DNA from: Piezodorus guildinii
Lineage: Eukaryota > Arthropoda > Insecta > Hemiptera > Pentatomidae
Direction of reading: 5' to 3'
DNA length: 64,000 nucleotides
Assembly: GCA_023052935.1 (NCBI GenBank)
Contig: CM041297.1
Coordinates: 2,718,280 to 2,782,279, forward strand
The notes under the pieces are model-generated. The model was given only the letters and a program-made list of their open reading frames with translations. It was not told the origin of the DNA and ran no database searches. The first letter of the stretch is position 1; each line of letters begins with the position of its first letter. Below, piece by piece: positions 24,110-37,405 of the stretch. A program made the position numbers and the translations under genes.

Positions 24110-24394
24110 GATTAAAAAAAAAAAATGTGGTGCGGGCAACACACGACTTTCACTTACCTCCGTTTTTAAAATCAATGAAAGAATTTTCAAAAACAGTTAG
24201 AGATAAAAATACGTGAAACTATTAAAAAATAAATTAAATAGAATTTATATGGAAACTTTTATTAAAAACCTATTATATTATTATCTAAAACAATTACTTA
24301 GTTTTATCGGCATTTTATCACTCTCTAATAACTTTTAAAAGCTTGTGTATGAGATAATATTTTTTCTAAAATCTTTAGCTTTCCAACGGCATAT
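24110..24394 (-). repeat. Repeat D, first part (split by the Gypsy element)
   Basis: Inverted D from its terminus ('gtgcgggcaacacacgactt') to 'tttagctttccaacggcata'. It resumes at 31030 after the retrotransposon. Confidence 0.8.
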
Positions 24395-24962
24395 TGCTAC
24401 GGTCAAGACAATGACGGGTGGACCACGCCTGGAGGGGCCTAGATGAGGCTAGAGACTTCTGGACCTGGACAGTCCTCGAAGTGCCTGGAACGGCCCACCC
24501 TTCTTACCTGCGCCCAACGTGGGGCTAGAAGATTCGGCGGTGGTACAAATACCGGTCCCCCAAACCTGGGGGAGTCAGTCTTAATCCGGCTCAACAAGCA
24601 TCTGGGATGTATCAGTGAACAGTGACAGTGAACCGTTCGTGACAGTGTGACAGTGTAGTGAAACTGTGTGTCAGTATTGTGATAACCGGTCGGTGGGAAA
24701 TTAGAAGACTGTAGTTTATATATAACTTATAGTTGTAAGTTTTAGAATAAATCTAGCATATTGTATAAATTTTCGTAAGTAGTTTAATTGTTAGGAATAC
24801 CTGATTTTATATGTATACTGTTTAGTAGTAAGCTGGTAATTCCATTATTATTGTTAATATAGTGGTTAGTAATCCCTTTGTATTTTGTGTTTTCTGTATT
24901 AATAAATATTTGTAATTTGTAAACTGGAGTAGTTCATTTCGCACACCCCGTAGCCCGTAACA
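24395..24962 (+). repeat. 5' LTR
   Basis: 568 bp, 5'-TG...CA-3'. Contains GC-rich U3-like sequence, 'ggtacaaatacc' (weak TATA-like), and 'attaataaatatttg' near the end, which could supply the polyadenylation signal. It matches the 3' LTR with an offset of 6067 throughout the parts compared by eye. Confidence 0.95.
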
Positions 24963-24965
24963 ATT

Positions 24966-24983
24966 TGGCGTCAGAAGTGGGAT
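24966..24983 (+). other. Primer binding site, tRNA-Leu type
   Basis: 'tggcgtcagaagtgggat', starting three bases after the 5' LTR. Apart from one base at the discriminator position it is complementary to the 3' end of an animal tRNA-Leu (CAA) as I recall it (…CCCACTTCTGACA-CCA). This is the expected place for minus-strand primer annealing. Confidence 0.7.
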
Positions 24984-25046
24984 CATTGTAAATGGTTATA
25001 ATTTTGGTTTTCTTGTTTTTGTAATTATTGGGCTACTGTGTGGAAA

Positions 25047-26484
25047 ATGACTTCTCAGAGTGTTAGACTGAATGATTTAAAAGTTGCAGACTTAAGACGG
25101 GAGTTAGAAGAACGAGATCTGGATACTTCCGGAACGAAATTAGTACTGCAACAACGCTTGCGCCAATTTTTTGTTGATTCAGGGGAAAATCCAGACGAGA
25201 TTACGTTTGAAAATGATTTCAGTAAGTTGTCTGCAACTTTTTAAAAATGAGTTAGGTAATGTAGAAAAGAAGTTAGGAAATGAGTTAGATAATGTAGAAA
25301 AGAAGTTAGGAAATGAGTTAGGTAATGTAGAAAAGAAGTTAGGTAATGAGTTAAGTACTGTTAAAAATACATTGGAGGCCAAGTTAGGCAATTTAGAAAC
25401 TAAGTTAATGGAGAGTGTAGATAATAAGTTAGCTGATGTAGAATCTAGATTAGGAGAAAAAGTCGATTCAGTAGAAAATGAACTTAGGGTAAGAATAGAA
25501 GCTCTAGAAGAACGTATGAGCAACCCACCGACAATCGACACCGACCAACCCTCTGAGAGAAGCCCTCACAACACCATTCCCTCCGCCAATGCTGGGATGC
25601 CACCAACGCACAACACCATCCCATTGTTCGACGGGAAGACGCCGTGGGAGGACTACATGACTCTCTTCGAGACAGCGGCTTCGATCCACGGGTGGTCAAA
25701 GGAGACGCAAGCATCAGCGTTGTGCCTAGCCTTGCGTGGAGACGCCTTAGGAGTGCTACAGGGGATGCCCATGTCGGAGCGGTGCAACTACAGTGAGCTG
25801 ATGAAAAGACTGGAGATGCGTTTCGGCCATCGCCACATGGACCAACTATACCGTTCCCAGTTAAAGAACAGGGTCCAGAAGACCAACGAGACGCTGCAGG
25901 AATTTGAAGCAGATATCGCCCGGCTAGTGAGGAATGCCTACCCAACGGTCACCGACGACGTCTACGAGAGCTTGGCTATCGACAAATTCCTGGATGGACT
26001 TCGAGACCCGGAAACCCAACAGGCAGTGAAACTCGCACGACCTAAAACTTTGGGCGATGCATTGTCGCAGGCCATGGAATTCGAGGCTGTCAGGCAGTCA
26101 GTCCGTGGACATGCACGAGTTCGAGCGGCAGAAGCGGAGCCTAACGCGGCCCCCACCATCGAGGACATAGTAGCAAAGGTTTTAGAAGCCCTCAGGACCC
26201 GCAAAAAGGAGATACGCTGTTGGAGCTGCGGTCAACTTGGACACCCCAGAAGCAAGTGTCCTACCAGGAAGCCGGAAAAAGCAACAGGAAAACTAAGGAG
26301 GGTTGATGGGAAGGGGCAACTGTCAACCCGTAGCATCGAAGGCCCCAGGGTCGCCGTGAGAATCGCGACAATAGGGAGCAAGACAAATAGTTTTTTATGT
26401 GGATGGAATGGTGAACGGGCAGCTGCGGAGTTTTCTGCTAGATACCGGCGCAACCATGACAATACTGAACCCGAAGGCAGTTAA
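25047..26484 (+). CDS. gag: Gag polyprotein with SAP-like domain, coiled coil, capsid-like region and zinc knuckle; split by a +1 shift
   Basis: Gag packages element RNA and forms particles. ATG at 25047 (MTSQSVRLNDL) opens a SAP-like helix-extended-helix motif: LKVADLRRELEERDLDTSGT, then KLVLQQRLRQFF (about residues 8-40). This frame stops at 25242 (ttt taa). The next frame carries on in-family sequence: heptad-rich 11-residue repeats (LGNELGNVEKK) forming a predicted coiled coil, then a capsid-like region with PLFDGKTPWEDYMTLFETAA, LRGDALGVLQGMP, QLKNRVQKTNETLQEFEADI and FLDGLRDPETQQAVKLARP. A CCHC knuckle CWSCGQLGHPRSKC follows at about 26218-26260. The single-base offset at a T-run is either a mutation or a programmed +1 shift. 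The stop at 26484 overlaps pol by about 110 nt. Confidence 0.85.
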
Positions 26485-29400
26485 CGCTAAGAAGATATCA
26501 CCTACCACTTGGGCGTTACGGACAGCCACAGGACAGCCAGCCGAGGTCTACGGGGAGACAGTTGCCACTTTCTTCATCGGGGGCCAACGTCTAGAGCACC
26601 GCGTTCTCGTGGCGAAAATAGACGAAGAAGTCATCTTCGGCATGGACTTGATGATCAAATACGGGATCAAGCTGGACATGTCGAGAGGTGTGATGACGCT
26701 GGGAGACGAAGAGGTCATCCTTCGGCAGGGAAAGGACCTCTATGCACGAGTACTCCTACTAGAAGACACCACTTTACCTGCACGGAGTCAAATTCTGACG
26801 CATGGGACGATCAATGGACGACTACCGGAGGGTCAATGTCTTCTACTTGAACCTGGGAAGCACGAGGAGCAGGAAGTCGGACGCGGTGTTCTGGTTGCAA
26901 GGTCTCTCATCAAGGTCGGACATACCACCCCAATCCGACTGATGAATCTGAACAGCTTCCCGGTGACACTAAAGAGAGGAACACCAGTCGGAGAATGTAC
27001 GGCCGCTACCTCAGTAGTCCGACAGCTACAACGCAACCCCACCGAGCAACGAGGACTACCCAAAGAATTAAAAGGATTCGTGGAGGAATCATGCAGAGAA
27101 CTTTCGCCTGAACAGAGCGAAATCGTGAAGAGATTGATTACCCGATGGCAGAACATTTTCGAGATCAGCTCAGGACCACGGGGTAGAACGAACATCGTCC
27201 AGCACAAAATTGACACCGGGGATACAAAGCCCATCCGACAGATCCCGAGGAGGCTGCCGCTAGCTAAACGAAAGGATGCCGAAGAGATTATTAAGGATAT
27301 GGCGAATGATGGTGTCATCGAGCCCTCGAGTAGCCCATGGATGTCTCCTGTCGTACTGGTGAAAAAGAAAGATGGGACGACAAGATTCTGCGTAGATTAC
27401 CGTCTTTTGAACAACGCCACGAAGAAGGACAGCTACCCACTCCCAAGGATTGACGACACGCTGGACACACTAGAGGGTTGCAAACTATTTTCTACCTTGG
27501 ATCTCCGCAGTGGATATTGGCAGGTTGGATTGGCACCGGAAGATAAGGAGAAGACGGCATTTTCAATCGGCACTGGCCTCTGGCAATTTACGGTAATGCC
27601 ATTCGGGCTTTGCAATGCTCCTGCAACGTTCGAGAGGCTGATGGAAAGCGTCTTAAGAGGCCTTTCTTGGGAGATATGCCTGGTTTACTTGGACGACATC
27701 ATTGTACTGGGAAAATCCTTTACTCACCATCTGGAGAATCTGGAGCGGGTCTTCGAACGGCTGCGTGCAGCCAATCTAAAACTGAACCCGAAGAAGTGCA
27801 ATCTCTTCCGAAGGCAAGTCAACTACCTGGGGCATGTTGTATCAGACAACGGAGTTGCTGTTGACCCAGAGAAGATTACAGCGATCACCAATTGGCCAGC
27901 ACCTCGAGATAAGCACCAAGTGAGAAGTTTCCTCGGACTCTGCACCTACTACAGGAGGTACGTGAAAGGATTCGCCAACATCGCAAAACCCCTTACCAGG
28001 CTCACTGAGGAAAAACGGACTTTCCTTTGGGATCGCGAGTGTCAGGCTTCATTTGAGGAGTTAAAGAAGAAATTGAGTAGTGCGCCTATTCTAAGCTATC
28101 CACGTCCCGAGGGCAAGTTCATTCTTGACACAGATGCCAGCAACACTGCTATTGGAAGCGTCCTTTCCCAACTCCAAGACGGGGAAGAAAAGGTTATTGG
28201 GTACTTCAGCAAAGCACTGTCAGCTCCAGAACGCAACTACTGTGTCACAAGGAAAGAGCTTCTGGCAGTGGTTAAGTCCATAGAGCACTTTCATAAATAC
28301 CTGTATGGAAGAAGATTTCTACTGAGAACGGACCACGCAGCTCTAATGTGGCTGCTGCGATTCAAGTCACCGGAGGGACAAGTTGCACGGTGGATCGAGC
28401 GCCTTCAGGAATATGACTTCGAATCTGCTCATCGTTCTGGAACGAGTCACCGGAATGCGGATGCGCTCTCAAGGAGACCCTGTGATGGAGAACGCAAGCA
28501 TTGTTCTCGACAAGAAGAAAAGCAAGCAACAGTGTTGCGGACTACGGTCGTTACCGACGGTTGGCAGGACACACAACTGGCAAAGGAACAGGACGAGGAC
28601 CCGGACTTGAAACAAATAAGGGAATGGAAGCTATCAGGCCAAAGGAGACCAAGCTGGCAGGATGTTGCTCCAATGTCGAAAAATATAAAAACCTATTGGG
28701 CTCAATGGGACTCCATTCTACTGGACAAAGGTCTGCTGAAACGAGCATTGGAGAACACGGAGGGAGATCAGCGGAGACTACAGCTCATCGTACCAAAGAT
28801 TAAAGTGCCCGAAGTACTGAGGGAACTACATGATGGAGCATCTGGCGGCCACCTTGGAGTTCACCGGACATTAGAAAAGGTTCGTGAACGCTTTTACTGG
28901 GCAAACCTCAAGGACGATGTGTTAGATTGGTGCCGGCGGTGTGCAACTTGTGCCGCCTCTAATGGACCGATAAGGAAAAAGAAGGCACCTATGAAGAAAT
29001 ACAACGTAGGAGCACCATTCGAGAGAATAGCGGTAGACATCGCTGGCCCTTTTCCTGTGACAGATAATGGCAACCGATATATTCTCGTGGCCATGGATTA
29101 TTTTTCAAAGTGGGTGGAAGCTTATGCCCTTCCGAATCAGGAGGCCGCCACGGTTGCCGATGTTCTCGTGAAGCAGCTCGTCAGTCGGTTTGGGGTGCCC
29201 ATGGAACTTCATGCTGACCAAGGAAGAAACTTTGAGTCGGCAGTCTTCACCAGGATGTGCGAGGCTCTAGGAATACGGAAGACCAGAACGACGCCTCTTC
29301 ACCCTCAGTCCGATGGCATGGTAGAGCGCATGAACAGGACAATGGGTCGATATTTGGCCAAGGTAGTTTCTGACCATCAGCGAGACTGGGACCAATATCT

Positions 29401-30481
29401 TCATCTGTTCCTGCTAGCCTATCGTAGTTCAGTCAATGAAACGACAGGGCAGACCCCCGCCAATGTCGTGTTCGGCAGAGAACTACGCTTGCCTTGCGAT
29501 CTGAAATTCGGTTTCAAGCCTGATGAGGAGGTCGCCGGAGAAGACTACGCCACGAACCTACGGAAGCGAATGAACACTATTCACGAGAAGGTTCGCACAA
29601 ACATCCAGGGAGCAAGTGACAGAATGAAGGAGCGTTACGACATCAAGGCAGAGAAAGGTGGCTTCCAACCTGGAGACTTGGTCTGGCTACACGATCCTCG
29701 AAGAAGGCAAGGCTACTCACCGAAACTTCAAAACTCCTGGGACGGACCGTATGAGGTCATCAAGAGGATCAATGATGTCATCTATAGGATCAGGAAGCAG
29801 CCCAAAGGAAAACCCAAGGTAGTCCATTTCAACCGATTGGCCCCATACAAGGGAAACCATGGCCCTACAGAGGAACAGCAAGTCAGGAACCTCACCGACA
29901 AGGACCTAATTCCCCATCCTAAGGCGCCAGACTCCCGTAGGGTAACGCAGACAGTTTACAGAGACATATTCTCGTTACCGGTAGACTATGCTCTAGCACA
30001 TTGCGTCGCCGAACATCTGAGGAATTCCCGGGGGATTGCGACGGTCTTCAGGAAGAAGTTCGCTGGAATTGAAGAGCTGGAACGCCAGGGACCAAGAGTT
30101 GGGAAGGCTCTCCATCAAGAGCATGAAGGCCGGCACCTGTTTTACTTGGTTACCAAGAGTTCATCAGAGCAGAGGCCGACATACGACACACTGCGCCGGA
30201 GTCTTGACGACCTGCGGAGAAAGCTTCTGGAACTGCGTGTCACCAAGCTCGCCATCCCGAAGTTGGGTTGTGGATACGATGGCCTGGAGTGGAGGATTGT
30301 CAGGAACATTGTAGAAGAGACGTTCGCCAACTCTGGAGTCATCATAATGGTATGCACGTTCAACCCCTGGAAAGACAAAACACCTACATTGGAGGAAGAT
30401 CAGCATCGCTCAGCTTCTGCAATCTGTGCTCTGGGGCAGAGCACGTCTAAGGAGGGGGTAGTGCTACGGTCAAGACAATGA
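26375..30481 (+). CDS. pol: Pol polyprotein: protease, RT, RNase H, integrase, macrodomain
   Basis: Makes and integrates the cDNA. Residues are counted from 26399; the frame opens at 26375. The protease has LLDTGAT (Asp15). The RT has FCVDYRLLNNAT, FSTLDLRSGYWQVGL, PFGLCNAPATFERL and the catalytic VYLDDIIVLG (about 430). RNase H has FILDTDAS (about 577) and VTRKELLAVV. Integrase has an HHCC finger (GHLGVHRT ... WCRRCATC), core residues Asp (VDIAGPF, about 880), Asp (HADQGRNF, about 939) and Glu (MVERMNRT, about 975), and a GPY/F-type module (SWDGPYEVIKRI, about 1114). Residues about 1186-1322 form a TARG1/OARD1-like macrodomain. No stop lies before 30479, and the last six codons fall in the 3' LTR. 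Pol is in the +1 frame relative to Gag. Confidence 0.95.
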   Translation, partial: GARQIVFYVDGMVNGQLRSFLLDTGATMTILNPKAVNAKKISPTTWALRTATGQPAEVYGETVATFFIGGQRLEHRVLVAKIDEEVIFGMDLMIKYGIKLDMSRGVMTLGDEEVILRQGKDLYARVLLLEDTTLPARSQILTHGTINGRLPEGQCLLLEPGKHEEQEVGRGVLVARSLIKVGHTTPIRLMNLNSFPVTLKRGTPVGECTAATSVVRQLQRNPTEQRGLPKELKGFVEESCRELSPEQSEIVKRLITRWQNIFEISSGPRGRTNIVQHKIDTGDTKPIRQIPRRLPLAKRKDAEEIIKDMANDGVIEPSSSPWMSPVVLVKKKDGTTRFCVDYRLLNNATKKDSYPLPRIDDTLDTLEGCKLFSTLDLRSGYWQVGLAPEDKEKTAFSIGTGLWQFTVMPFGLCNAPATFERLMESVLRGLSWEICLVYLDDIIVLGKSFTHHLENLERVFERLRAANLKLNPKKCNLFRRQVNYLGHVVSDNGVAVDPEKITAITNWPAPRDKHQVRSFLGLCTYYRRYVKGFANIAKPLTRLTEEKRTFLWDRECQASFEELKKKLSSAPILSYPRPEGKFILDTDASNTAIGSVLSQLQDGEEKVIGYFSKALSAPERNYCVTRKELLAVVKSIEHFHKYLYGRRFLLRTDHAALMWLLRFKSPEGQVARWIERLQEYDFESAHRSGTSHRNADALSRRPCDGERKHCSRQEEKQATVLRTTVVTDGWQDTQLAKEQDEDPDLKQIREWKLSGQRRPSWQDVAPMSKNIKTYWAQWDSILLDKGLLKRALENTEGDQRRLQLIVPKIKVPEVLRELHDGASGGHLGVHRTLEKVRERFYWANLKDDVLDWCRRCATCAASNGPIRKKKAPMKKYNVGAPFERIAVDIAGPFPVTDNGNRYILVAMDYFSKWVEAYALPNQEAATVADVLVKQLVSRFGVPMELHADQGRNFESAVFTRMCEALGIRKTRTTPLHPQSDGMVERMNRTMGRYLAKVVSDHQRDWDQYLHLFLLAYRSSVNETTGQTPANVVFGRELRLPCDLKFGFKPDEEVAGEDYATNLRKRMNTIHEKVRTNIQGASDRMKERYDIKAEKGGFQPGDLVWLHDPRRRQGYSPKLQNSWDGPYEVIKRINDVIYRIRKQPKGKPKVVHFNRLAPYKGNHGPTEEQQVRNLTDKDLIPHPKAPDSRRVTQTVYRDIFSLPVDYALAHCVAEHLRNSRGIATVFRKKFAGIEELERQGPRVGKALHQEHEGRHLFYLVTKSSSEQRPTYDTLRRSLDDLRRKLLELRVTKLAIPKLGCGYDGLEWRIVRNIVEETFANSGVIIMVCTFNPWKDKTPTLEEDQHRSASAICALGQSTSKEGVVLRSRQ
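29957..30368 (+). other. Macrodomain (TARG1/OARD1-like) at the C-terminus of Pol
   Basis: Macrodomains bind ADP-ribose, and the TARG1 subgroup removes ADP-ribose from proteins or nucleic acid. Visible blocks, in family order: DIFSLPVDYALAHCVAEHLR, SRGIATVFRKKF, HLFYLVTKSSSEQRPTYDTL, LRVTKLAIPKLGCGYDGLEW and NSGVIIMVCTFNPW. Two residues match the known catalytic pair: Lys1253 in LVTK and Asp1294 in GCGYDGLEW, 41 apart. To my memory the human enzyme's Lys84 and Asp125 are also 41 apart. The glycine-rich GAGIA-type loop reads SRGIA. The domain is in frame with integrase, with no stop between, joined by a ~40-residue linker. Its role in the element is unknown. Confidence 0.9.
30449..30461 (+). 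other. Polypurine tract
   Basis: 'aaggagggggtag', immediately before the 3' LTR (30462). Purine-rich except for the last bases. The normal plus-strand primer site. It lies inside the end of the pol frame. Confidence 0.8.
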
Positions 30482-31029
30482 CGGGTGGACCACGCCTGGA
30501 GGGGCCTAGATGAGGCTAGAGACTTCTGGACCTGGACAGTCCTCGAAGTGCCTGGAACGGCCCACCCTTCTTACCTGCGCCCAACGTGGGGCTAGAAGAT
30601 TCGGCGGTGGTACAAATACCGGTCCCCCAAACCTGGGGGAGTCAGTCTTAATCCGGCTCAACAAGCATCTGGGATGTATCAGTGAACAGTGACAGTGAAC
30701 CGTTCGTGACAGTGTGACAGTGTAGTGAAACTGTGTGTCAGTATTGTGATAACCGGTCGGTGGGAAATTAGAAGACTGTAGTTTATATATAACTTATAGT
30801 TGTAAGTTTTAGAATAAATCTAGCATATTGTATAAATTTTCGTAAGTAGTTTAATTGTTAGGAATACCTGATTTTATATGTATACTGTTTAGTAGTAAGC
30901 TGGTAATTCCATTATTATTGTTAATATAGTGGTTAGTAATCCCTTTGTATTTTGTGTTTTCTGTATTAATAAATATTTGTAATTTGTAAACTGGAGTAGT
31001 TCATTTCGCACACCCCGTAGCCCGTAACA
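30462..31029 (+). repeat. 3' LTR
   Basis: 568 bp. Matches the 5' LTR with no difference found by eye. Ends gtaaca, followed by the ATAT target duplicate. Confidence 0.95.
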
Positions 31030-31033
31030 ATAT

Positions 31034-31635
31034 CATACATGTATATTACTGTTCTTATGTTCAAAAACGAAAAATTGCATTAAAAAAAATATGTTTTCGA
31101 ATTCATTCAATTTATATATTTACCTGTTTTTCGTAAGTGGTAACAAGATAATATAGTTATTTTTCTAGAATCAACAAAATTAAAGGTACTTTAGAGAAAG
31201 AAAATTTAAATATCGGCATTTAAGTCCTGTCAGACCATTTAAATCCAAATGAAACCAAAATTATATTAAAGCCCATTAAATTTTACATCGATATAGCTAG
31301 TTTAATCAAAATGGTCGGAACCGTTTTCGAGAAAATCTAAAAAAAGGTGCAAAATGCATAGTATAAAGTGCCTCTTCTGGTAAGCTCATTTTGATGAAAA
31401 AGGTTTTGTAACGTCTCGGGCGTAGATTTGTCTTAAATATGAAATTTCAGTTTTATAGGTCTTACCGTTTCCGCCCGGGAGTTACGACACACACACACAC
31501 ACAGACCTTTTTGCGGGACTTAGTTATTTGGACTCAGGGGACCCTAAAATGTGTATTTTCGTTGAAAACTGGAATTCGAAAATTTTCACGATCGCAATAC
31601 TTCCCCTTACTATATATAGTAAGTGAAAGTAAAAA
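31034..31635 (-). repeat. Repeat D, second part
   Basis: Continuation of the 24110-24394 copy: 'catacatgtatattactgtt', 'cctcttctggtaagctcat', a CA microsatellite at 31487-31502, and the D start 'actatatatagtaagtgaaa' at about 31610-31628. Confidence 0.85.
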
Positions 31636-32017
31636 TGCAAAAGAAAAATTTAAAATATTCAAGTATGACTTCTCCCTAACTTACGCGAGTGCAAGATTCG
31701 TTACTTCTTCATTTTTAATTGAATTATTTATCAAAGCATTGAATACAATATAATTGCAAGTTGAAACAGCATTTATTTGTGCTAATGATGGTTTATTACC
31801 GCTGGTAGACTGATATTAAGAACCTCGTAGGGAAGAAGTTACACCCACGAGAGAGCAGGCAGGCCTCTATCTAAGATATACCCTACCACCGCCCACGGTT
31901 CCACGTCGGAAATATTTTTCCTTCCACATACGACGCGCCGAAGAATGATAATCTGAATAAAATATATAATAGGATAAATAATAACAATAATAGGAAGTAA
32001 AGATTGGGAAAATATAA
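31636..32017. other. No recognised feature
   Basis: No family or terminal repeats were recognised. A short GC-richer block lies at 31840-31930. Confidence 0.35.
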
Positions 32018-32645
32018 AATAAAAATCTGGTGCGCGCAACACACGACTTTCACTTACCTGTTGTTTATATCAATTTTAAAAAAATTAGAGTTTAAATAGA
32101 TATTAAAAATCAGGCAACGCACGAATTTTACTAATATCCGTTTTAAAAATCGATTAAAGAATTTTTAAATAGAGTTAAGAGACAAAAATAAGTAAAACTA
32201 ATAAAGAATAAATTAAATTGAATTTCCATACAATTCCATAATAATCTACTGTATTATTATCTAAAATAATTAGTTTATTTTATCGGCTTTTCATCACTCA
32301 ACTTTTACAAATTTGTGTACAAGATAATATTTCTTTCTAAAATATTTACCTTTCCAACGGTATATTATACATGTTCTAATGTTCCAAAACAAAAAATTGT
32401 ATTAAATATTTTTTTTGTAGTTTCCTCCTTTAGTTGGATATCGAATTCGTTCAACTTATATATTTAGCTCTTTTTTTAGCAATGCTTCAACATATGTTAT
32501 GGTCAATTTCATAAAATCTACAAAATAAAAGGTATTTTATGGGAAGATAATATAAAATATAGGCATTTAAGCCCTGTCAGACTATTTCAATAAGAATGAA
32601 ACTTACATGATATTAAAGCCCAATAAATTATACATCGATATAGCG
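32018..32645 (-). repeat. Repeat D, partial copy
   Basis: Starts at the D terminus ('gcgcaacacacgactttcac'), with a second diverged terminus at about 32105, and runs to 'acatcgatatagcga', where a Jockey-A fragment begins. Confidence 0.7.
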
Positions 32646-33068
32646 AGACTGAAACGACAAGAAACTTACTTAAACTGGACTTACGGAGTTTAGGGCTCTA
32701 CGAAACCATCAAATTCTTCCCGTATTCAATCCCTACAATCCAAAATCCTCAATACTCCTTACTTTGTCACAACTCACCCATAAAGACCTTAATGTCCCAT
32801 ATATAGCTGATTTGGCCCGAACCAGGTATCAATCCTTCCATGAAATACTCCATGGAAAAGAAGATGGTCTCCAGACCTTCTAGTTTAGTTACCTAGTGGA
32901 GTGATGCCAATGGGCATTTTCTCTTCATGTTATTTTCATGTATTTTATTATTATTGCCAACGTATAATAATGTAATATGCATATTGCAAATGTAATATGC
33001 AACATTACCAACATATTTACTTGTTGTATTACAAAATACAGTTGTAAATTTCAATAATAATATTTAAA
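32646..33068 (+). pseudogene. Jockey-A LINE 3' fragment
   Basis: Starts at LKRQET ('ctgaaacgacaagaaac'). Remnants of GLRSLGLYETIKFFPYS-like, IHKDLNVPYIADLARTRYQS and the last WSPDLLV-type block follow, interrupted by deletions (the ILRKIL segment is shortened). The 3' UTR ends near 33068. Confidence 0.7.
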
Positions 33069-34059
33069 AAATAATTGTAATCTAATAACCTTCTCTACAA
33101 ATTAAAATAAAAGTAAGAATGGAAATATCTAACATAATTTGACGATTTTTGTCCACGAAAAGTCACCTTTATATTATTCTAATCTAGTTTAAATTTCTTA
33201 TTTTTTTTATATTAGAGTAGTTAATAATTATCCCCTTAAATCATCTTGGAATACATACGCTTTCATTCACCAAGAAGACTTTCCTTTTTTTTTTTCGGTG
33301 CCCGAATTAAGTTTAATCCTATATTCTTCGTTATAGTTATACTTTTTAAATAATTGTCATCTGCTAATATTCTCAATAATTATATTAAACATTGAATGGA
33401 AAATATCCAGCAAATGTATACAATTTTTCAAAAACGAGAAATCACATAGATTTTATTCTAATCTGATTTAATTTAATTATGCGAACAAAATTCGAAACAA
33501 AAACAGGTATGCATCAGACTGATAATGCGTGGCTGGCGGACCAGAATGCGAACTGTCCAGATTTTTACATCGATAAGGAAATGGACATCCGCATATTTAC
33601 TCATGATTTTATTTATTATGACAAAATAAGACTGGAAGACAGTCTGTCAGCCACTTTATGCAAGGATAAAATTATATATGGATTCCAGGTTCACGGAAAA
33701 CGGCGGGAGAGGATTTGACAGGAGTGGGTTCGATGACCCTCTGGGAAACTGCTACTGGGTCCTCAACTTCTTGGAAGGGAGAGACTCGGCTTCAAGCGCG
33801 ATGGTACTTCTTCCTGGAGGGTCGCGTTTGTCAATTAGCTCTGCCACTGTTGGCTGTCATCTCACCGGGTCCATTGGCAGAATTTCCGAAGTGTTTTGAC
33901 CGACCATCTGCAAAGTTTTGGCTTATTGACGTCATGTTAAGACTTTTTGGTTCTTAATATCATATACTTACTATTACACGCAAAAAGTTCATTAAAATTC
34001 GATTAAATAACTAACGATGTAATGATGATATTTATCCCGCAATCAACTTTTTGGTTTGA
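33069..34059. other. Unassigned, with a GC-richer patch at about 33670-33930
   Basis: AT-rich to about 33470. Overlapping frames of 73-80 codons cover 33479-33957 (one starts MRTKFETKTGMHQTDNAWLA). I recognise no family and see no splice pattern I would trust. It might be a decayed exon or an unknown element. Confidence 0.3.
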
Positions 34060-34680
34060 ACCCCTCAGCCCTTCTCATCAAAATATGAGGGCTTATATTT
34101 CAAGATATGTAAAATCAGAATAGCAAAAAAAAAAAAAACTATTAAAATATAAAAAGCCGTACGCGGATTTCTCTCTGCAATTACGGGACCAATTATGCTG
34201 AAATACAGCACAAAAATACTAACGCATCCAACGATGACCCTAACACCTAGACGTTAATATACGCAGATTATTTTTATAATGGCGGCCGTTTAAATATGAT
34301 TTAATTCAATAACTAAGTTATTTTTGAAGACAGAGACAAAATTTATTAGGATAAAAAAGAAATTGGAATTTTACCCATAAATACACCTATAACTCAATTA
34401 TTTTTTTAAGATGGAGAAAGAATTGTACTGTGTATAAGGATCAGGACATCGCTACGAATAAAAAAAAAATATATTCTTTTTTTAAAAGAAAAGAAATAAA
34501 ATTGATGTCTGGCCTATACATGCGCTATTAACTCCATTATTTTTGAAGATAAAAAACAATTGCATAGAATTTCAGAATCAGTACACTGCTATTAATTATA
34601 AAACAGAGAAAAAAAATTATATTTCATCAAATTATACGCCCTTCACTCAGTTATTTTAGAAAGTAAATGCCAAAAATTAA
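34060..34680 (-). repeat. Repeat family C copy
   Basis: Inverted family C blocks: 'tcaaaatatgagggcttata', 'caacgatgaccctaacacct', 'aatggcggccgtttaaatat'. Non-coding. Confidence 0.55.
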
Positions 34681-34684
34681 AAAC

Positions 34685-35585
34685 AAAATCTGATGCGGGC
34701 AACACACGACTTTCACTTACCTCCATTTTAAAAATCAATGAAAGAATTTTCAAATACAGTTAAAGATAAAAATACGTGAAACTATTTAAGAATTAATTAA
34801 ATTGAATTTAGATAGAAACATGTGTTTTATTAAAAAATCTATTATATTATTATCTATTATAATCAGATTTATCTGCCCTTCATTACTCTCTATTAACTTT
34901 TACAAGTTTGTGCATTAGATAATATTTATTCTAAAATCTTCAGCTTTCCAACGGTATATTATACGTGTATATGACTGTTGTTCAAAATAAAAAAATTGCA
35001 TTAAAAAAATATGTTTTCAGTTTTCTCCTTTAGTTGGATATCGAATTCGTTCAACTTATATATTTATGTGTTTTTTATCGGTGGTAACAAGATAAAATAT
35101 TTATTTTTATAAAATCTACGAGATTAAAGGTACTTTACAGGAAACAAATGTAAAATATCGGCATTTAAGCCTTTCAGACCATTTTAATCGGAATGAAAAC
35201 TACATAGTATTAAAGCCCATTAAAGTTTACATCAATATAGCGAGTTTAATCAAAATAGTCGGAACCGTTTTAGAGAAAATCGAAAAAATATGGTAAATGC
35301 ATGGTATAAAGTGGCTCTTCTGGTAAGCTCATTTTGATGAAAAAGGTTTTGTAACGTCTCGGGCGTATATTTTCATAAATATGAAATTTCAGTTTCATAG
35401 GACTTTTCGTTTCCGCCTGGGAGTTATCACACACACACACATACACTCACATAATTTTTTGCGGGACTTGGTTATTTGGACTCAGGGGAGCTTAAAATGT
35501 GTATTTCCGTTGAAAACTGGAATTCGAAAATTTTCACGATCACTATACTTTCCTCCACTACATATAGTAAGTGGAAGTAAAAAAA
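34685..35585 (-). repeat. Repeat D, near-complete copy
   Basis: From the terminus ('gcgggcaacacacgactttc') to the start end ('tccactacatatagtaagtg'), about 900 bp, with the CA microsatellite at 35430-35450 in the usual place. Confidence 0.8.
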
Positions 35586-35663
35586 AAAGTTAAATTTTCT
35601 ACAAAAGGAAAAAAAACGTTAAAATCGGTTTAGAAATATAGTCCGATTCTAATTGAACCTGCA

Positions 35664-35669
35664 TAGGCT

Positions 35670-35751
<82 letters not shown>

Positions 35752-35752
35752 C
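35664..35752. repeat. (TG)n(TA)n and poly(T) microsatellite
   Basis: TG repeat to about 35690, TA repeat to about 35724, then a T-run to about 35751. Confidence 0.95.
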
Positions 35753-36231
35753 ACTTGTACTGATAGGACATAGGGGTGCGCGAAATTTTTTTGTTGGGAA
35801 CAATGAGTCTAGAGTGTGAAGTAGAGCACTTTCAATCGTTCGTTAATGAGTTAAACTTTCTATCTTGACCTTCTAGCCCCTAGTGATCAATTTTTGGAAT
35901 GTTATCAATTAATAACAATAAATAAAGTAATATAAATGAGCAATAGACCTACAACACTAGCGCTCGTACGGAGCCAGCCACAAGCTCACAGACCGAGCAC
36001 AAACAAAGACAAGCAGAGAGAAGCGGCGCTCGACATCCACCTGCTTGGAAGACCTTGGGCCCAGGGCACCGGGTCAAGGAGCCATTATGTAACCATTCTC
36101 TTCCTAGCGTCGCTTTCATTTGTTTTATTAGTCCGTCTAATTAGCGGGGGCGTCAGCAGGATTTTCGTCCGGTCGAGCAGGTTAGGAATATATAGTGGGG
36201 CGGTCATGTCGGCTTGAAAATATACTACTTA
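35753..36231 (+). other. Unassigned GC-richer segment with a 93-codon frame
   Basis: Frame 35936-36217 (MSNRPTTLALVRSQPQAHRP ...) has a hydrophobic run YVTILFLASLSFVLLVRLI but matches no family I know. The high GC content, an 'aataaa' at about 35918 and 'gaatatatagtgg' at about 36187 might suggest an LTR, but no direct-repeat partner was found. Confidence 0.3.
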
Positions 36232-36395
36232 TATTTTTGGTTTATTTGTTTATTCATATAACTTTATGCTACAGTGGCTAATAGGACGATGATACAGTGT
36301 GAGTCTCAAATTTTGCTGTAGATGGTTAAATAGGATAGTTATCTTTAACGAGTATCTGACACCACACTTGCTGGGAACCACCATTTTACGTTCCC
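36232..36395 (-). mobile_element. SINE-1 fragment
   Basis: Inverted tail and part of the body: 'tttatgctacagtggctaat', then 'atctttaacgagtatctgac', diverged. Confidence 0.65.
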
Positions 36396-36507
36396 CTAAA
36401 AAAGGTGGTATGTGTTCACGCCATTTGTTAGGGTTAGGGTATTGGAATAGGTGCTCAACCTCTTGGTTATTAGCAACGAATATATTTATAGTAACAGATA
36501 TTTTTTT

Positions 36508-37405
36508 TTCCAAGTATTGCGATCGTGAAAATTTTCGAATTACAGTTTTCAACGGAAATACACATTTTAGGGTCCCTTGAGTCCAAATAACCAAGTCCCG
36601 CAAAAAGGTCTGTGTGTGTGTGTGTGTGTGTGTGTTTCCGTTTGTGGTAACTCCCGGGCGGAACCTTAAAGTCCTATGAAACTGAAATTTCATATTTAAG
36701 TCAAATATACGCCCGAGACGTTACAAAATCTTTTTCATCAAAATGAGCTTACCAGAAGAGCCACTTTATACCATGCATTTTGCACCTTTTTTCGATTTTC
36801 TCGAAAACGGTTCTGACGATTTTGATTAAACTCCGCTATATCGACGTAAAATTTAATGGGCTTTAATATCATGTAGTTTTCATCCAGATTAAAATGGTTT
36901 GAGAAGGCCTAAATGCCGATATTTTAAATTGTATTCATCTAAAGTACCTTTAATTTTGTAGATTCTATAAAAATGACCACATTATCTTGTTACCATTGAT
37001 AAATAACAGTTAAATATGTAAGTTGTGCGAATTTAAAAAACAACTGAAGGAAAAAAGTGAAAACATATATTTTTAATGGAATTTTTTATTTTGAACATAA
37101 GAGCAGTAATATACATGTATGATATACCGTTGGAAAGCTAAAGATTTTAGAAAAAATATCATCTCATACACAAGAGCTTGTAAAAGTTAATAAAGAGCGG
37201 TGAAAAGCCGATAAAACTAACTGATTATTTTAGATAATAATATAATAGATTTTTTAATAAAACACATGTTTCCATAGAAATTCAATTTAATATTTAATTA
37301 ATTCTTTAATGGTTTCACTCATTTTTATCTCTTACTGTACTTGAAAATTATTTAATCGATTTATAAACGGAGGTAAGGTGTGTTGCCCGCACCAGCTTTT
37401 TTTAT
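36508..37405 (+). repeat. Repeat D, near-complete copy
   Basis: Lacks the first ~30 bp; starts 'aagtattgcgatcgtgaaaa'. TG microsatellite at 36608-36634. Ends 'gtgtgttgcccgcaccagct'. Confidence 0.8.

Follow-up and report, generated by a model that had tools for sequence, protein, structure and literature searches.

Why does the Pol polyprotein of an insect retrotransposon run on, past its integrase, into a domain that resembles a human enzyme of ADP-ribose removal? The question is raised by a 64,000-nucleotide stretch of the Piezodorus guildinii genome (Hemiptera, Pentatomidae; assembly GCA_023052935.1, contig CM041297.1, positions 2,718,280 to 2,782,279 of the forward strand), hereafter the window, in which a long terminal repeat (LTR) retrotransposon spans positions 24395-31029. 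The element belongs to Ty3/Gypsy: Gag, a Pol with the order protease, reverse transcriptase (RT), RNase H and integrase, both LTRs and a short target duplication are all present. Its Pol ends in a macrodomain of the TARG1/OARD1 type. With some reserve, we lean towards the view that this macrodomain serves as an integrase-tethered ADP-ribosyl hydrolase that would erase ADP-ribose attached by host PARPs.

Identity of the macrodomain and layout of the element

TARG1 was the top sequence match of the window domain (E 1.3e-31), other macrodomains being clearly weaker (next entry E 6.7e-06). The predicted structure, compared with solved structures, also matched the TARG1 fold, and human TARG1 is the closest solved relative by both sequence and fold; the fold search was run with one domain only and leaves room for families outside its match list. 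A sequence-only reading of the window had proposed just such a Gypsy Pol ending in a TARG1/OARD1-type macrodomain, and this is borne out. The check that it suggested, by hidden Markov model and structure, succeeded as regards a significant TARG1 match and failed as regards the plain Pfam Macro model (PF01661), which stayed under its cut-off in the window domain (17.3 bits vs 22) and was passed by the related element P0003 (22.3 bits). Chance or a frame artefact as the source of the fusion is ruled out by the TARG1 sequence match, the fold and the genome-wide copies described below. Lys1253 and Asp1294 align with Lys84 and Asp125, the catalytic residues of human TARG1, and the alignment agrees with the earlier claim that the two pairs are equally spaced. 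Judged from sequence and modelled fold, the macrodomain is likely to remove ADP-ribose, that is, to be an ADP-ribosyl hydrolase. The features of the element are as follows.

24391..24394, no strand: target-site duplication ATAT, 5' side (sequence)
24395..24962, forward: 5' LTR, 568 bp, TG...CA, identical to the 3' LTR
24966..24983, forward: primer-binding-site-like stretch right behind the 5' LTR (position and sequence)
25068..25172, forward: SAP domain, N-terminus of Gag (Pfam SAP, 43.4 bits, E 2.4e-11)
25171..26484, forward: Gag open reading frame (ORF; Retrotrans_gag over cut-off, CCHC knuckle under cut-off)
26399..30481, forward: Pol ORF, 1,360 residues, stopping inside the 3' LTR; frame differs from that of Gag in the window copy
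26402..26650, forward: aspartic protease, Pol 2-84 (Pfam)
27359..27838, forward: reverse transcriptase, Pol 321-480 (Pfam)
28106..28414, forward: RNase H, Pol 570-672 (Pfam)
28790..28963, forward: integrase H2C2 zinc domain, Pol 798-855 (Pfam)
29015..29305, forward: integrase core, Pol 873-969 (Pfam)
29744..29845, forward: integrase p58 C-terminal or GPY/F-like module, Pol 1116-1149 (Pfam Integrase_p58_C)
29936..30376, forward: TARG1/OARD1-type macrodomain, Pol 1180-1326 (sequence and fold matches)
30155..30157, forward: codon of Lys1253, equivalent to human TARG1 Lys84 (alignment)
30278..30280, forward: codon of Asp1294, equivalent to human TARG1 Asp125 (alignment)
30449..30458, forward: polypurine tract ahead of the 3' LTR, within the Pol reading frame (sequence)
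30462..31029, forward: 3' LTR, 568 bp, identical to the 5' LTR
31030..31033, no strand: target-site duplication ATAT, 3' side (sequence)

With identical LTRs and a Pol open over its whole length, the window copy has the intact frame that had been claimed for it. The Pol frame passes through the macrodomain and the polypurine tract to a stop 20 bases into the 3' LTR; because Pol terminates there, an env gene has no room, and no env ORF, as would mark a retrovirus or errantivirus, lies between pol and the 3' LTR of the window element. A Pfam scan of Pol with E up to 1 gave no match to a chromodomain, the mark of chromoviruses, after integrase. The SAP frame opens at the ATG at 25047 (25047-25244) and differs from the remaining Gag frame in the window copy. 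Gag also contains, at 25245-25376, a 33-bp unit (NELGNVEKKLG-like) repeated in tandem about four times, which perhaps forms a coiled coil. Downstream of the element (31340-36833) lie several repeats, direct as well as inverted, that are 76-167 bp long.

Copies, relatives and origin of the domain

A fusion restricted to one copy is ruled out by hundreds of places in the source genome and by relatives elsewhere. A degenerate 27-base pattern drawn from the active site matches 471 genome places, against 0 for the reversed pattern. In a protein search of the genome with the window domain, the best 150 of 545 candidates, a set biased by being the best-scoring copies, are all 98-100% identical and free of internal stops. 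In 30 of these 150 the frame around the domain stays open for 1,790 residues or more, a length that would accommodate Gag and Pol together. Another 31 share a frame length of exactly 1,444 residues, as if a single variant had been amplified. Thirty fetched copies, the window's own (L008) included, have their Pol stop near the start of the following LTR, 183 codons from the domain start in 28 copies and 176 codons in 2. Among 60 sampled copies (the first 60 of 100 pattern places listed, all on contig C1), the domain frame is without gap, insertion or stop in 50, and AAG still encodes the catalytic Lys in 58, the Asp codon being fixed by the search pattern.

Protein searches with the domain within Pol and with the domain alone as queries gave 28 and 11 proteins, respectively, and an RT/RNase H query gave 7,898 matches, relatives being taken among the 120 matches listed. 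An RT or integrase match was present in 141 of the proteins retrieved, that of the window among them, and 40 of these carry the domain, so the same fusion, which the sequence-only reading had wished to see in related genomes, is indeed found there. Among the carriers are 17 proteins of Molorchus minor, a longhorn beetle, and P0075 of Callosobruchus maculatus, a bean beetle; P0003, P0007 and P0060 come from assemblies labelled Erysiphe pulchra and Klebsiella pneumoniae, where they are presumably foreign DNA. In a subgroup made up of P0025, P0067, P0070 and proteins of Molorchus minor, the macrodomain is followed by a CCCH zinc finger, with Pfam zf-CCCH over cut-off in P0067 and P0070. The domain is C-terminal to integrase in 39 of the 40 carriers, the exception being P0026, whose TARG1-type domain (PDB E 1.2e-31) is found at Pol 815-954, behind RNase H and ahead of integrase.

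A tree of RT and integrase was built from 54 of 92 usable Pols, namely all 20 carriers and the 34 of 72 non-carriers with the highest RT identity. It united 19 carriers and three Pols without the domain in one clade of 22 (support 100/99), leaving outside 31 non-carriers and P0026, which has a long branch in the RT tree and is of unsure placement. Most of the outside non-carriers (29 of 31) end 3-24 residues past the integrase match; P0096 has 96 residues more, and the match in P0121 stops early. Within the clade, P0072 retains the short motif that in related Pols comes after the domain and the zinc finger, which suggests that its domain was deleted, and P0052 and P0056 could be cut-off predictions instead of cases of real absence.

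The domain tree (34 rows; P0039 and P0040, short or very long-branched, were excluded) has a branch of support 98/97 with 22 C-terminal domains, the hopper 'OARD1-like' proteins and the metagenome fragment P0034 on one side, and human TARG1, nematode P0035, four stand-alone proteins, RNA-virus P0027 and P0026 on the other. A single capture is the simplest reading of these sequences for the C-terminal type, and we infer that a cellular TARG1 gene was captured once, at the base of the element clade. The capture envisaged in the sequence-only reading is thus supported, though not as an act of the window element itself, being older and common to the Gypsy clade. Grouping of P0026 with the C-terminal domains was not rejected by the domain tree (approximately unbiased test, p 0.342); its domain's place in Pol and its RT-tree position would point to a second capture.

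The hopper proteins (P0030 and P0031 from Macrosteles quadrilineatus, P0032 from Nilaparvata lugens, both species Hemiptera) start with the linker that joins integrase and domain in Pol and are therefore taken to be element pieces or genes derived from them. The P0030 linker is 52% identical to that of the window Pol over 61 positions, and the P0032 linker 62% to that of P0005 over 53. Caution is thus advisable with 'OARD1-like' genes of hopper genomes, as they can be misnamed element fragments or domesticated copies. No host TARG1 gene was distinguished with a nematode TARG1 query, for which 150 of 504 candidates were scored; these matches, at 45-47% identity, are at the level of the element copies, and many lie at known copy places. 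A degenerate pattern for the Leu-Asp form that is usual at this active site matched one genome place (control count 1), which is no TARG1 exon. The prokaryote contigs searched with P0025 gave no relative.

Relatives do occur in RNA viruses. The alphavirus-like polyprotein P0027 has a TARG1-type domain of 42% identity, and structure matches extend to VP8 of Kadipiro virus and to thrips-associated viruses; the virus contigs gave no relative with the window domain as query and ten matching contigs with an alignment query (A1). These viral domains, together with the P0026 domain that is not at the integrase end, favour an account in which the macrodomain acts apart from integrase, likely freed by the element protease, and in soluble form opposes the ADP-ribosylation of Gag, RNA or capsids in the manner of viral macrodomains. 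The position behind integrase in all carriers but one argues against it, and we regard it as rather improbable.

Constraint on the domain and its possible role

If the macrodomain is an integrase-tethered eraser, it would stay joined to integrase after protease processing. Host PARPs would attach ADP-ribose to the integration complex, to the DNA ends of the element or to nearby chromatin, and the macrodomain, predicted to be active, would strip it at the integration complex or the target.

Selection was assessed on the 60 sampled copies, which represent one element family, with the nine pattern codons excluded and a neutral expectation of 2.72 replacement changes per silent change that assumes transitions weighted 2. 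Macrodomain variants present in at least two copies comprise 15 silent and 16 replacement changes (omega about 0.39, p 0.0085), and all variants together 39 silent, 37 replacement and 3 stops. In the upstream 1,200 bp, mostly integrase, 51 aligning copies gave 33 silent and 6 replacement variants in at least two copies (omega 0.06). The purifying selection for which the sequence-only reading had proposed a test is therefore detected: the macrodomain is constrained, yet clearly less than integrase.

This replacement deficit in shared variants, together with active-site columns that are conserved while the adjoining linker falls to 29% identity, makes it very improbable that the domain is a passenger, captured without use and harmless. 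A passenger would agree with the three domain-free clade members and with the faster evolution of the domain relative to RT and integrase; across 18 elements, mean identity is 78% for RT, 72% for integrase and 50% for the domain, with 39% for the 180 residues ahead of RT and 29% for the linker ahead of the domain.

The chief rival holds that the domain is a reader and not an eraser, binding ADP-ribose and steering the integration complex to ADP-ribosylated chromatin much as chromodomains, at the same place of Pol, steer chromoviruses. Its place directly behind the GPY/F-like module, the site of chromodomains, fits this account, as does the lineage of P0069 and P0070, sister elements whose frame is still open and whose domain can still be recognised although catalytic residues are lost. 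However, the catalytic Lys is retained in 22 and the Asp in 21 of the 23 element domains counted, and pure binding would not require them. The sole target preference seen, moreover, needs no reader: of the 29 copies whose LTR end was located, the window's among them, 26 have TA at the centre of the four bases behind the 3' LTR, and 14 of these 29 flanks, read on the 3' side only, are ATAT. Insertion sites thus seem to prefer a central TA, and we judge a reader unlikely.

Background in keeping with an eraser comes from parp-1 mutant flies. In the study of these flies (PMC7712786), five of eight significantly changed mobile elements went up and three down, the largest rise was that of springer, of the Gypsy clade, and ten further elements, nine of them Gypsy-type, rose without passing the significance limit.

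Several points weigh against a hydrolase that erases host marks. Three of the eight fly elements fell, the additional rises were non-significant, and the authors allow an indirect effect. The domain is missing in 3 of the 22 clade members (P0052, P0056 and P0072), P0069 has Arg and Asn in place of the catalytic Lys and Asp, and in P0070 the Lys is intact and the Asp is replaced by Asn, so the domain is not essential to every member of the clade. The position of human Gly41-Ala42 is mostly Ser-Arg among the element domains, and the substrate preference may therefore differ. The domain, with omega about 0.4, is under far less constraint than integrase (Fisher p 0.0017), and the evidence thins as variants are required in more copies, with 9 silent and 10 replacement changes in at least three copies (p 0.045) and only 3 and 4 in at least five.

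A wider proposal is possible, although we hold it to be doubtful: an insect Gypsy lineage may have kept an integrase-tethered hydrolase through its diversification as a counter-defence against PARP-based silencing or repair, a second capture in P0026 and the TARG1-type domains of arthropod-associated RNA viruses pointing to an arthropod ADP-ribosylation defence against mobile elements. No description of such a defence in arthropods was found in the literature searched.

Comparison with known systems

Part of this picture is already known. According to a review (PMC4977317), which credits Basta et al. 2009, macro-domain ORFs occur in fish epsilon-like endogenous retroviruses. These are likewise LTR retroelements with a macro-domain gene; in the fish retroviruses, however, the ORFs are mentioned as additional ones, whereas here the domain is an in-frame integrase fusion in Ty3/Gypsy. 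TARG1-type domains also occur in RNA viruses. An integrase-fused TARG1-type macrodomain across a Ty3/Gypsy clade was not found described in the literature searched, and a report may exist beyond it.

Human TARG1 (OARD1, C6orf130), the terminal ADP-ribose protein glycohydrolase, is alike in fold and in the spacing of the catalytic Lys and Asp; it is a stand-alone cellular protein, whereas the element version is a Pol domain, mostly with Ser-Arg for Gly41-Ala42. Chromoviruses are Ty3/Gypsy elements with a chromodomain behind the GPY/F module of integrase. They resemble the window element in having an extra domain appended at this point of Pol, but the window Pol has a macrodomain in the chromodomain's place and offers a natural integrase fusion that may erase or read an ADP-ribose mark. 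The macrodomains of alphaviruses, coronaviruses and rubella virus, and the TARG1-type domains of RNA viruses, share with it a macro fold on a replicating element. Viral macrodomains have been taken as signs of ADP-ribosylation defence, and with a TARG1-type domain that a clade has kept beside integrase, and that shows signs of selection, one can put to the test whether insects place ADP-ribose on mobile elements or at the sites where these integrate.
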